Below are positions 59,922 through 64,000 of a stretch of DNA of 64,000 bases, one piece after another. The position numbers and the translations under genes are program-made. Location of the stretch: assembly GCA_000169355.1 (NCBI GenBank), contig AAXX01000001.1:682001-746000 (forward strand), given 5' to 3'. Position 1 is the stretch's first letter. Each line of letters begins with the position of its first letter. The notes beneath the pieces were generated by a model. The model had not been told where the DNA came from. It did no database searches and was given only the letters and a program-made list of their open reading frames with translations. The stretch comes from Flavobacteria bacterium BAL38 (GTDB taxonomy: Bacteria > Bacteroidota > Bacteroidia > Flavobacteriales > Flavobacteriaceae).

Positions 59922-60878
59922 TTAAAATATATCTTTTGCAATAGTTTTTATATTTTCAGCCTTACCCATTGAATAATAATGTAAAACGGGAATACCTGCC
60001 GCAACTAATTCTTTACTTTGTTGTGTACACCATTCTATTCCAATTTGTTTCACTGCATCATTATCTTTAGCTTTTACAACCGCCATTATCAAATCATCGG
60101 GTAATTCAATACTAAAACGATGTGGAATTAAATTCAATTGTTTCTTTGTTGCGATAGGTTTTAATCCTGGAATAATAGGCACTGTAATTCCGGCGGCTCT
60201 GCATTTTTTAACAAAATCGAAGAATTTTTTATTATCAAAAAACATTTGGGTTATAATATAATCAGCTCCGTTTTTTATTTTTTGTTTTACAAAATGAATG
60301 TCGCTATCTAAACTTGGTGCTTCCATGTGTTTTTCTGGATAACCTGCAACTCCGATGCAAAAATCGGTTTTTGTTGAATTCTGCAAATCTTCGTCTAGAT
60401 AAATCCCTTTGTTCAAATTGCTGATTTGTGTTACTAATTCCGAAGCATAAGCATGACCTTCTTTTTCAGGTTTGAAGTATATTTCGCTTTTAACTGCATC
60501 ACCACGAAGTGCTACGACATTATCAATTCCCAAGAAATCCAAATCAATTAATAAATTCTCTGTATCTTCTTTGGTAAATCCTCCACACAAAATATGTGGA
60601 ATGGCGTCAACTTGATATTTATTCTGAATTCCGGCACAAATTCCAACCGTTCCCGGGCGTTTTTTAACTACTTTTTTCTGAAGTAAGCCGTTTTCTAATT
60701 CTTTGAATTCATATTCCTCACGATGATAGGTTACATCAATAAAGGGCGGGTTGAATTCCATTAACGGATCAATGCTATCAAAAATAGATTGAATATTTTG
60801 TCCTTTTAACGGTGGTAAAATTTCGAAGGAGAACAAAGGTTTTCCGTTAGCGTTTTGTATATGTTCAGTTACTTTCAT
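59922..60878 (-). CDS. metF: 5,10-methylenetetrahydrofolate reductase
   Basis: FAD enzyme reducing methylene-THF to 5-methyl-THF, the methyl donor used by MetH encoded just upstream. 318 residues as a TIM barrel: FSFEILPPLKGQNIQSIF, PPFIDVTYHREEYEF, ILCGGFTKEDTENLLIDLDFLGIDNVVALRGD, and IITQMFFDNKKFFDF. It is downstream of metH on the same strand; the 108-bp gap is bounded by repeat arms (60880-60908 and 60970-61001). Confidence 0.95.
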   Translation of the reverse strand: MKVTEHIQNANGKPLFSFEILPPLKGQNIQSIFDSIDPLMEFNPPFIDVTYHREEYEFKELENGLLQKKVVKKRPGTVGICAGIQNKYQVDAIPHILCGGFTKEDTENLLIDLDFLGIDNVVALRGDAVKSEIYFKPEKEGHAYASELVTQISNLNKGIYLDEDLQNSTKTDFCIGVAGYPEKHMEAPSLDSDIHFVKQKIKNGADYIITQMFFDNKKFFDFVKKCRAAGITVPIIPGLKPIATKKQLNLIPHRFSIELPDDLIMAVVKAKDNDAVKQIGIEWCTQQSKELVAAGIPVLHYYSMGKAENIKTIAKDIF

Positions 60879-60879
60879 G

Positions 60880-61001
60880 AGCCTCCCCCGGCCCCTCCAA
60901 AAGAGGGGTGACTGAAGTGGGTAATCAGTTTTTTAAAAATTAATTTTTCTTATTTTACGATTTTGGGTTCCTCCCCTTTGGGGAGGTTAGGTGGGGCTTA
61001 A
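60880..61001. repeat. Inverted-repeat pair in the metH-metF spacer (gene-less relative of the DUF559 element)
   Basis: Arm 1 (60880-60908) starts AGCCTCCCCCGGCCCCTCC and arm 2 (complement of 60970-61001) starts AGCCCCACCTAACCTCCCC. Both go on to an A run inside a CCTCC-AAA-GGGG palindrome. The arms face each other and enclose about 60 bp of AT-rich DNA. The composition and AGCC...CCCC...GGGG order recall the terminal repeats of the element inside metH. Arm 2 supplies the last codons and stop of metH. Confidence 0.65.
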
Positions 61002-64000
61002 ATTGGGTGATAGCCATTTTTCGGCTTGTTCAACACTACTATTTCTTCTTTTGGCGTAATCTTCTAATTGGTCTTTCTTAATTTTTCCTAAACCAAAATA
61101 TTTACTTTCTGGATTGGCAAAATAATAACCTGAAACCGATGATGCTGGCCACATTGCCATACTTTCCGTTAGTTTTACGCCTATTTCTTGTTCTACATTT
61201 AATAATTTCCAAATTGTTGGTTTTTCCAAATGGTCAGGACAAGCGGGATAACCCGGCGCGGGACGAATACCTTTATATTGTTCTTTAATTAAATCCTCAT
61301 TTGACAAAACCTCTTCAGAAGCGTAGCCCCAAATTTCTTTTCGCACTTTTAAATGCAAGTATTCTGCAAAAGCTTCTGCTAATCTATCTCCCAAAGCTTT
61401 TACCAAAATCGAATTATAATCGTCCAATTGTTTTTCGAATGCCGAAGCTTTTTCATCCACTCCAAAACCAGTTGATACACAGAAACATCCAATATAATCT
61501 TGTTTACCAATTTCTTTTGGAGCAATAAAATCTGCCAATGCGATATTTGGAGCTCCAGCCGTTTTTTGTGATTGTTGTCTTAAACTCAGAAACTTCTCGA
61601 CTCCGCTCGAAGTGACAAGTTCTATATCATCATGATTAATTGTATTCGCTGGAAAAATTCCTAAAATTCCTTTGGCAGAAAACCACTTTTCGGAAACAAT
61701 TTGAGAAAGCATTTTTTGAGCATCTTCAAATAAATGAGTCGCTTGTTCACCTACAATTTCATCGGTCAAAATCGCTGGATATTTTCCATACAGTTCCCAC
61801 GATTGGAAAAATGGTGTCCAATCGATGAAATCTACTAATTCTGAAAGTTCTACTTCAACAGTTTTAGTTCCAATGAAATTGGGTTTTACTGGTTCGAACT
61901 TATTCCAATCGATTTTGAATTTATTTTTACGCGCTTCATCAATCGATAAGAAATTTTTCTCTCGACTTCTGTTCAAATATCCTTCACGAAGCGTGTCATA
62001 TTCTTCACGAAGTAATTTTGCATAAGTAACTTTTGTATCGGGTTGTAATAAATTGGTCGCCACAGTTACCGCACGAGAAGCATCGTTAACATGAACCACC
62101 GTTTCTTTATATTCTGGAGCAATTTTCACAGCAGTATGCGCACGCGAAGTTGTAGCACCGCCAATCATTACGGGGATTTTGATATTCAATTTATCCATTT
62201 CTTTGGCCAAATACACCATTTCATCCAACGAAGGCGTAATCAAACCACTCAAACCGATAATATCTACGTTTTCTTTAATAGCTGTTTCAATAATTTTTTC
62301 TGGTGGAACCATCACACCTAAATCAATAATTTCGAAATTATTACAGGCCAAAACTACTGAAACAATATTTTTACCAATATCATGCACATCGCCTTTTACA
62401 GTCGCCATAAGAATCTTACCAGCCCCCCCCGCCCCCGAAGGGGTAGCTACTGAAATTGCGGATAATTCCCTACTTATAGATTCAACTGTGCTAAATAAAT
62501 CCTTTAATACTTGATTATTTGAATATCGTTTAACTATAAAACCGTTCTGTTCTAACCATTCTGTTCTTAATTTATCGCGTTCAATTTGTTCTTTCAAATT
62601 ATGAATTGAACCATCAACTTCAATAACTAGTTTTTTTTCCAAACAAACAAAGTCCACAATATATTCACCAATAATATGTTGTCTCCTAAATTTATAACCA
62701 TCCAATCCTTTATTCGATAAAACATTCCAAAGCAATTTTTCTGCCTCAGTTGGTTTATTTCTCATTTCTTTTGCTTTCTCTTTTAAAGCTTTATAAAGCA
62801 TCGGACTTGCGGTATTCCACGATTGCTTTTTAGCTCCCCCTTCGGGGGTTGGGGGGCTAATATAAGGAAGGAGATAAGCCACCGCTTTTTTCATTACACG
62901 CGCCGATTTTACTACTTGTGGCAAGAACATTTTTCCTGAACCAAACAAATCACCCACCACATTCATTCCGGCCATCAAATTGATTTCGATAACTTCGATT
63001 GGTTTTTTAGCTAACTGACGTGCTTCTTCAATATCAATTTCGATAAATTCGTCGATTCCTTTTACTAACGAATGCGTTAATCGCTCTTGAACCGAACCAT
63101 TTCGCCATTCGGCAATCGCTTTTTCATTTGATTTTACATCACCTTTGAAGCTTTCGGCTAAATCTAGCAAACGTTCTGTAGCATCTTCTCTTCTATTTAA
63201 CAAAACATCTTCGACATGTTCCAACAAAACAGGATCAATTTCGTCATAAATTTCCAACATTTCAGGATTCACAATTCCCATTGTCATTCCGTTTTGGATG
63301 GCATGGTACAAGAACGCCGAATGCATGGCTTCCCTAACTTTATCGTTTCCACGGAAAGAAAAAGACACGTTACTCACGCCACCAGAAATATTCGCATACG
63401 GAAGATTTTCTCGAATCCATTTGGTTGCTCGGAAGAAATCTAACGCATTTAATTTATGCTCTTCCATTCCGGTAGCCACTGGGAAAATATTGGGGTCGAA
63501 AATGATATCTTCAGCAGGAAAACCAACTTGGTTAACTAAAATATCGTAACTTCTTTTACAGATTTCGATACGTCTTTCATACGTATCCGCTTGACCATTT
63601 TCGTCAAAAGCCATTACGATTACTGCAGCTCCATATCGTTTGATTAATTTGGCATGATGAATAAAAGTAGCTTCTCCTTCTTTTAGAGAAATTGAATTCA
63701 CAACTCCTTTCCCTTGAATCACTTTTAAACCCGCTTCAATAATTTCCCATTTTGAAGAATCAATCATAACAGGAACTCGGGCAATATCGGGTTCGGCTGC
63801 GATTAGATTTAGGAACTTAGTCATGGCATAAACACCGTCCAACATTCCTTCATCCATGTTGACATCGATGATTTGCGCACCACCTTCTACTTGTTCACGC
63901 GCAACCGAAAGCGCTTCATTGTATTTTTCTTCTTTAATTAATCGAAGAAATTTTCTAGAACCTGTAACGTTTGTTCGTTCTCCAACATTAACAAAATTGG
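60987..64000 (-). CDS. metH: Cobalamin-dependent methionine synthase, 5' end outside window, with in-frame DUF559 insertion
   Basis: Methylates homocysteine from methyl-THF through cobalamin. The frame runs to the window edge (1003 codons visible); the first residues seen, [17 protein letters not shown], begin the pterin-binding domain. The ATG at 63857 is internal. Order: pterin domain (visible 1-285), helical cobalamin cap (to AYLLPYI, visible 380), a 146-residue insertion (381-526), the Rossmann cobalamin domain with DVHDIG (H codon 62382-62384), and the activation domain with [12 protein letters not shown]. The final SPT and stop come from a repeat. TSSGVEKF (61593-61618) is another in-frame repeat. 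Whether a homocysteine-binding domain precedes is not visible; in Bacteroidetes it may be a separate gene. Confidence 0.93.
61593..61618. repeat. CTTCGAC-type dispersed repeat inside metH
   Basis: Reads CTCGACTCCGCTCGAAGTGAC on the plus strand (minus the first bases) and encodes VTSSGVEKF in MetH. Related units: 12300-12322, 25535-25557, 27642-27665, 29763-29785, 48529-48550 and 55386-55406. Confidence 0.75.
62421..62448 (-). repeat. Inverted repeat, metH 3' side of the DUF559 element
   Basis: Plus strand AGCC, a C run, G, CCCCCGAAGGGG, TAGCT. It encodes ATPSGAGGA in MetH. Confidence 0.85.
62832..62858 (-). repeat. Inverted repeat, metH 5' side of the DUF559 element
   Basis: Complement of the arm at 62421-62448 with three differences and one gap. 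It encodes SPPTPEGGA in MetH. The central CCCCCTTCGGGGG is itself a strong hairpin. Confidence 0.85.

Follow-up and report, generated by a model that had tools for sequence, protein, structure and literature searches.

The window considered here is a 64,000-nt stretch of the genome of Flavobacteria bacterium BAL38, and toward its end it contains the gene for methionine synthase (metH), the N-terminal homocysteine part of which is a separate frame outside the window. Directly after the MetH residues VAYLLPYI the frame is occupied by an insert of 146 codons without a stop, after which host sequence resumes (table 1). The sequence-only reading, which had proposed an in-frame insert bounded by inverted repeats at this position, proved exact to the base.

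Table 1. Components of the in-frame insert and its host gene, in positions of the window
Feature	Position	Strand
metH host frame, in-window part: pterin, cap, B12 and activation domains	60987..63998	-
Whole in-frame element inside metH, 438 bp	62421..62858	-
Left end, 5' in metH: outer CCCCCCAA and hairpin CCCCCGAAGGGGG; translated as SPPTPEGGA	62831..62858	-
DUF559 / Vsr-like nuclease domain, D..E-x-D..H residues kept	62463..62786	-
Right end, 3' in metH: hairpin and outer G run; translated as ATPSGAGGA	62421..62449	-

The insert ends have GC contents of 0.77 and 0.71, the core 0.30 and the window 0.33. They contain inverted arms of 26 nt (62424-62449 and 62831-62856) that are 88% complementary and spaced 381 nt apart, and each end is a hairpin in its own right (CCCCCGAAGGGGG at the left) accompanied by an outer half repeat. 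A Pfam scan matched the insert itself to DUF559 and MTES_1575 only, with no Y1 (HUH) transposase on it. The DUF559 profile (PF04480) was matched at E 3.3e-36 and 123.9 bits, the curated cut-off being 20.6, which bears out the domain assignment originally made from the letters. Pterin_bind, B12-binding_2, B12-binding and Met_synt_B12 were matched in the same MetH frame, flanking the insert.

Comparison with MetH of relatives indicates that the insert is not universal. Using a natural empty MetH as query, a match was obtained in 141 of 150 genomes of the genus, and by manual count the site (site A) is uninterrupted in 120 of these 141; 16 genomes carry DUF559 there and the other five (G001, G046, G074, G084 and G149) gave weak, partial or broken matches. 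Empty loci, which were read for G028 and for the top-scoring hits of a single query, have the sequence LP[FY]IEASKQAGDKQGNGKI or a close variant, with 18-19 residues between anchors versus 150-170 when the site is occupied. About 12 linker residues of the empty relatives (EASKQAGDKQGN) are absent at the insert in this genome, and linker sequence was therefore replaced as well as added. The earlier statement that metH resumes cleanly has to be qualified to this extent, although the host frame does continue on both sides. The insert of G087 has more linker left (LPYIEEAKK...SSAGKI) than that of BAL38. A second position in MetH, site B, immediately before TLRQQ, holds 6 further copies, G131 and G138 being occupied at both sites. 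Some genomes have only short in-frame repeat pairs at site B (L018, L033), and one locus (L035) apparently has an internally deleted copy.

An insert of this kind might be removed or skipped during expression, as an intein, as an intron or by ribosome bypassing over a long RNA stem, and in the predicted RNA fold the two ends do pair with each other (energy z -5.9). Removal, however, would not require the reading frame and coding capacity to be kept, as they are here, and selection acts on the coded protein (see below). The six Pfam families matched along the MetH frame at E 0.01 or better include no splicing (Hint) domain, and no group I or II intron family was matched in Rfam up to E 1 across positions 60800-64000, where the sole match is a chance-level snoRNA outside the insert. 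Both scans agree with the initial impression that intein and intron motifs are lacking; the intein was rejected for lack of a splicing domain and the intron for lack of an Rfam intron family, and we regard removal or skipping in any form as very improbable.

When the insert domain was modeled alone (69 sequences, mean pLDDT 91.5), the nearest solved fold was that of NGO0050 (3hrl; Z 16.4, 42% identity over 94 residues), followed by the homing endonuclease I-Bth0305I (3r3p; Z 12.2, rmsd 2.4, 95 residues), Vsr (1cw0; Z 10.2) and TnsA (Z 7.0). Sequence matches include 3hrl (E 6.3e-31) and I-Bth0305I (E 7.6e-7), the PDB entry of the latter being named "mobile intron protein." In the alignment of the DUF559 profile with the 3r3p chain, which is itself possibly a mutant, E-x-D...H falls opposite E-V-N...W. 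An AlphaFold model of the MetH stretch (36 sequences, mean pLDDT 73.3, pTM 0.41) comprises the cap helices, a low-confidence segment at residues 89-104 (the translated left repeat), the nuclease domain at 110-222, a second low-confidence segment at 224-233 at the right repeat, and then the B12 domain. Both host halves of this modeled chimera superpose jointly on MetH 1bmt (Z 22.2, rmsd 2.8 over 196 residues); its nuclease part superposes on 3hrl (Z 15.3, rmsd 1.3, 94 residues).

The same domain recurs well beyond metH. Matches to PF04480 at E 0.001, weak partial ones included, occur in 80 of the 150 genus genomes. We examined 72 of the 102 strong matches, the 30 left out being mostly in short frames, and assigned them to MetH site A (16), MetH site B (6), LeuS site 1 (15), LeuS site 2 (1), an AddA/UvrD-type helicase (10), RecG (6), other long frames (3) and free positions (15); 54 of the 72 are consequently in frame inside MetH, LeuS, the helicase or RecG. 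In a family-level sample 66 of 199 genomes match at E 1e-12, again partly in MetH and LeuS (28 loci tabulated, four of them dropped by a motif filter; L139 left out), and HemD and HisD are added as hosts. A collection of named genomes, comprising the best 80 of 576 candidates and by design enriched for copies like that of the window, provides the additional Bacteroidota hosts IleS (at two sites, by reading of the loci), MetG, ValS, UvrA, PurL, adenine deaminase and RecJ, as well as aldehyde dehydrogenase-MaoC, DegT aminotransferases and IspF. The HemD, HisD and IspF cases are terminal fusions. An open frame of at least 100 residues is present on both sides in 123 of 173 distinct pooled copies. 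The LeuS linker is 14 residues long in 19 of 20 empty loci and 19-32 residues in loci chosen for longer frames. Relatives with the same kind of ends were found in frame in other essential genes, as anticipated, and the notion of an element living in permissive linkers gains support from its in-frame presence in many such genes; of the two terms first offered, selfish and domesticated, the latter may apply to single copies.

Carriage by phage or plasmid was considered and set aside. Database matches to phage amount to five records at 31-41% identity and those to plasmids to 40 records, 39 of them below 60% identity and one at 60-80%, several of the records being chromosome-sized. A different DUF559 subfamily, with inverted ends of its own, is found in other long frames (L063, L077, L078) whose hosts look by eye like restriction-modification genes. 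A LeuS-type insert is also present in a bin labelled Candidatus Paceibacterota (L207), either a case from outside the Bacteroidota or a binning error.

The layout seen in the window recurs in Flavobacterium cucumis DSM 18830, F. frigidimaris DSM 15937, F. glaciei DSM 19728, two Winogradskyella and Cellulophaga baltica, and in the single-contig genome G112. One contig elsewhere in the data set (G101:C46) ends inside an insert, as an assembly or binning artefact might lead one to expect. Because independent named isolates share this architecture, as does a genome assembled into one contig, an assembly error, which the sequence-only reading had listed among its possible refutations, is unlikely, and we give an artefact of either kind almost no credence.

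The invaded enzymes are expected to tolerate the domain. LeuS was matched in 144 of the 150 genus genomes, and 14 of the 15 LeuS-insert genomes have exactly two LeuS matches, as expected of one split gene; the exception, G147 (contamination 5), has three. One of the two matches covers the flank on the downstream side. The upstream flank is among the matches listed for G025, G031 and G044, and the second match in the other LeuS-insert genomes is taken to be the same flank. On these counts leuS appears to be single in the insert-bearing genomes, several of which are incomplete bins. Since leuS is also an essential gene, the enzyme must work with the domain inside it.

Selection on the insert was assessed from same-site pairs. 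Where insert dS is below 0.75, and decayed copies are set aside, dN/dS is 0.06-0.24 (0.23 and 0.24 for the window copy versus G032 and G134, respectively); two pairs within the same dS limit that involve decayed copies have values of 0.32 and 0.48. The median pN/pS over all 300 same-site pairs is 0.34. The D..E-x-D..H core is kept in 136 of 141 long-frame copies, and two LeuS copies (L074 and L076) have lost catalytic-type residues and kept the frame. Judged by these substitution patterns, selection maintains the nuclease coding, and activity is predicted.

Paired inverted ends are a feature of the group. A score of at least 28 was obtained for 47 of 71 same-genus DUF559 loci (L060, at a contig edge, was left out) versus 19 of 1151 shifted control positions, which is more than chance would give. 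Among the 24 loci scoring below 28 are the decayed copies, together with five of the six in RecG. Codon usage at the junctions of the 54 in-frame genus loci is unlike that of the host, CCC making up 46% of Pro codons and GGG 50% of Gly codons as compared with 15% and 14% in the host parts, indicating a constraint or an origin at the DNA level; the insert ends could be recognition or repair sites.

Repeats of the same kind are also found elsewhere in the BAL38 genome. A pair without nuclease lies at 60881-60998, between metF and metH, and the MetH C-terminus (PNLSPT) falls inside it; most of the relatives read end in PN(I/L)AD. A single translated repeat (VPPSGVRGLKLSGLEP) is located near the start of the metH frame just past the window end (L004 2146-2164, G000:C14:746045-746063), and G033 has a similar translated repeat near its metH frame start. 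The IleS frame of the same genome includes an in-frame nuclease-less stretch, SPLTPEGGT...SPLLEGLGEA (L244 742-760, G000:C14:1047441-1047459), which by eye apparently occupies the IleS site that holds DUF559 in L186 and L214. At a further locus, L243 (628-989), two inverted repeats 343 bp apart lie between frames resembling purK and purE by eye, the upstream frame terminating in the translated repeat SSPLTPKGGI. The second DUF559 of the BAL38 genome is free and intergenic (L003 871-1292; domain at G000:C14 344938-345252), bounded by GTCCCCTTGAGGGGACTTTAGGGGTGT and its inverse with the hairpin outermost, opposite to the metH copy. Given that the ends of this free copy are related to those in metH and reversed in order, the link between repeat and nuclease may predate the in-frame habit.

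One alternative is a palindrome-based transposon, whose nuclease would recognize the hairpin repeats and mobilize or copy whatever lies between them, the in-frame linker insertions being tolerated survivors and the solo repeats nonautonomous copies. REP/RAYT pairs are thought to move or copy in this way. The paired inverted ends, present also around the free intergenic copy of the same genome, the repeats that lack a nuclease, both in other parts of the genome and in frame within other genes, and the short nuclease-less derivatives at MetH site B are all in its favor. Against it, copies cluster by site. In a tree of the genus DUF559 domains (71 rows, without L042, which has a stop in the domain), site labels need 9 changes, the minimum being 7 and the shuffled mean 45.5, and the RecG copies and the AddA copies each form one group. 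A 54-row in-frame group in this tree is without a free copy, which also counts against transposition, with the proviso that 30 strong matches had been left out and that free copies from Prevotella-like bins fall among in-frame ones in a wider set. The quick tree of that wider set (169 rows) needs 30 label changes, the minimum being 12 and the shuffled mean 109.6, and its IleS copies are scattered (the 6 rows of one site need 5 changes). Clustering by site sets back free transposition as the whole story, as do divergence dips at the same site in different species (see below); we hold the transposon explanation to be unlikely, if still deserving of attention.

Clustering by site is also expected under vertical inheritance, that is, if an old domain insertion had been kept for a host function such as regulation, repair or defence and lost many times. 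Purifying selection agrees with such a history. The presence of the same domain in many unrelated proteins, and its patchiness within one genus, do not. In a MetH host tree of 46 rows (L060 absent; warnings were issued for three long rows and three of odd composition), the 15 occupied rows need 4 changes that are forced by supported branches, and G131 and G047 are nested among empty relatives. Site-A copies of the window, G032 and G134 group with site-B copies, suggesting from the tree topology that, in the BAL38 lineage, a copy jumped within MetH from site B to site A; the jump is forced by the strongest branches of the wide tree and not by those of the genus tree.

Synonymous divergence of insert and host was compared along the gene. 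The insert is lower than every equal-sized host block in 12 of 16 same-site pairs, a biased sample in that the pairs were picked after seeing the dN/dS results, and two of them are based on 8 host blocks. Examples are LeuS of G112/G105 (insert 0.29 vs. 0.69 upstream and 0.60 downstream), AddA of G029/G110 (0.30 vs. 0.63 and 0.64 in the host) and RecG of G092/G032 (0.45 vs. 0.71 and 0.77); the dip is small for G000/G032 and G131/G142. In the other 4 of the 16 chosen pairs insert and host are alike, as vertical inheritance would have it, suggesting that the synonymous rate of the insert is not low by nature. A systematic nearest-partner set of 59 pairs was reduced to 55 by omitting four in which two collections had contributed identical or almost identical genomes. 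In 14 of these 55 the insert ranks lower than all host blocks (one with a single block), in 4 it ranks higher than all of them and in 37 it does neither; it is below the host mean in 36. By our own estimate a lowest rank would be expected by chance in about 6 of the 55 pairs, as hosts offer few nonoverlapping blocks. A rank test on 24 unsaturated pairs, four duplicate pairs included, gave p 0.035, and the saturated-host pairs (pS > 0.68; 35 of 59) are little informative either way. Strong dips in the systematic set include LeuS G112/G105, RecG G092/G032 and AddA G007/F. tiangeerense. Two of the sharpest involve metagenome bins (G126/G101 and G028/G138), and because the G101 contig ends inside the insert, the G126/G101 dip was given no weight although it is among the strongest. 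Lateral movement into the same site is well supported by these divergence patterns for some pairs, not for all.

The systematic set also weighs against homing: 41 of its 55 pairs have no dip, and in 4 of those the insert is the most diverged part. The same 41 pairs count toward vertical inheritance. The strong dips, together with the supported changes in the MetH host tree, count against it as a general account, and we rate it as quite unlikely. Clustering by site in combination with apparent cross-species moves, in some pairs, into the same site points to homing rather than free transposition.

We therefore consider it probable that the metH insert is a nonsplicing homing element, retained in the protein as one of its domains, with its translated repeats serving as linkers. 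The open frame, together with selection on the coded protein, strongly supports the view that a single Vsr-like nuclease domain is seated in an inter-domain linker and translated within MetH. The GC-rich hairpin ends would supply flexible Pro/Gly linkers, around which, to go by the structure model and the single-copy hosts, MetH would fold and stay functional. Selection would keep the nuclease active. On entry of related DNA into the cell, the nuclease may cut an allele lacking the insert at the very linker it occupies itself, and repair templated by the occupied allele could then install the element with short flanking conversion, two steps suggested by the divergence dips and by homology. 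Rare landing in another linker would found a new site lineage, and copies would presumably decay in place as catalytic residues are lost or internal stretches deleted, with in-frame Pro/Gly scars left behind. Splicing of RNA or protein would not be needed because the element exploits the tolerance of its host for an extra domain.

Extended across the Bacteroidota, the data incline us, with some reserve, toward one more structural class among homing elements, in which a minimal nuclease enters the linkers of essential proteins without breaking the frame, remains there as a translated domain and has hairpin repeats that double as coded linkers. Homing endonucleases usually reside in introns, in inteins or outside genes, sparing what they invade. 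Here, the nuclease seems to spread as a permanent domain of essential enzymes, aminoacyl-tRNA synthetases among them. If true, proteins would have a further means of acquiring domains and linkers, the DUF559 fusions and Pro/Gly scars of housekeeping proteins would be accounted for, and positions at which essential enzymes naturally tolerate insertion would be marked out. DUF559, mentioned in only 14 papers of the open-licence literature searched, would also gain a testable function.

In the literature searched (open-licence PMC papers) we found no description of such an in-frame nuclease element, and several known systems resemble it in part. Inteins are in frame, patchily distributed, found in conserved proteins and associated with a homing nuclease. 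The metH insert shares with them the in-frame position, the patchiness and the conserved hosts, and differs in lacking a splicing domain, its sequence seeming to remain in the protein. REP/RAYT systems combine hairpin repeats flanking a DNA-processing gene with solo repeats, a similar arrangement, except that the protein in metH is a Vsr-like nuclease rather than a Y1 transposase.

Among nucleases, EDxHD enzymes are listed as a homing family, and its member I-Bth0305I is described in the cited account as dimeric, its catalytic domain being joined by a tether to a region that binds DNA, with a target near 60 bp (PMC3943268). I-Bth0305I is related to the insert in fold and sequence (Z 12.2, E 7.6e-7), whereas the metH insert is without an intron and without an added DNA-binding region; that it is a bare domain of catalytic size, with nothing to account for its specificity, counts against the homing reading. 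NGO0050, free-standing DUF559 proteins and Caulobacter VsrA have the domain in common with the metH insert and, unlike it, are not lodged in a host enzyme; VsrA is described in the source as a DUF559 protein responsible for the DNA damage response in cells without a methyltransferase (PMC12907096).

The nearest case of in-frame palindromes known to us is that of the Rickettsia palindromic elements (RPE), repeats of about 150 bp found in frame in unrelated genes and encoding a conserved peptide (PMC10969869). They likewise place palindromic DNA in frame in unrelated genes; the cited passages describe them as short and make no mention of a nuclease, whereas the metH element has a full nuclease domain. 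WHO elements of yeast home into an essential gene without protein splicing, and their authors, noting that self-splicing is common to both recognized classes of homing element, the inteins and the intron-encoded endonucleases, consider them a third structural class (PMC7282813). WHO genes lie downstream of FBA1, have their own transcription and replace the FBA1 3' end (PMC7282813). A WHO-type independent gene beside the host was rejected for metH, where the insert is internal and in frame. With the WHO elements, as portrayed in that source, the metH element shares an essential-gene host and the lack of protein splicing; it differs in that its nuclease is an internal in-frame domain and belongs to another family. 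An element that remains in the protein thus fits none of the intein, intron-encoded and WHO classes as the cited text defines them.
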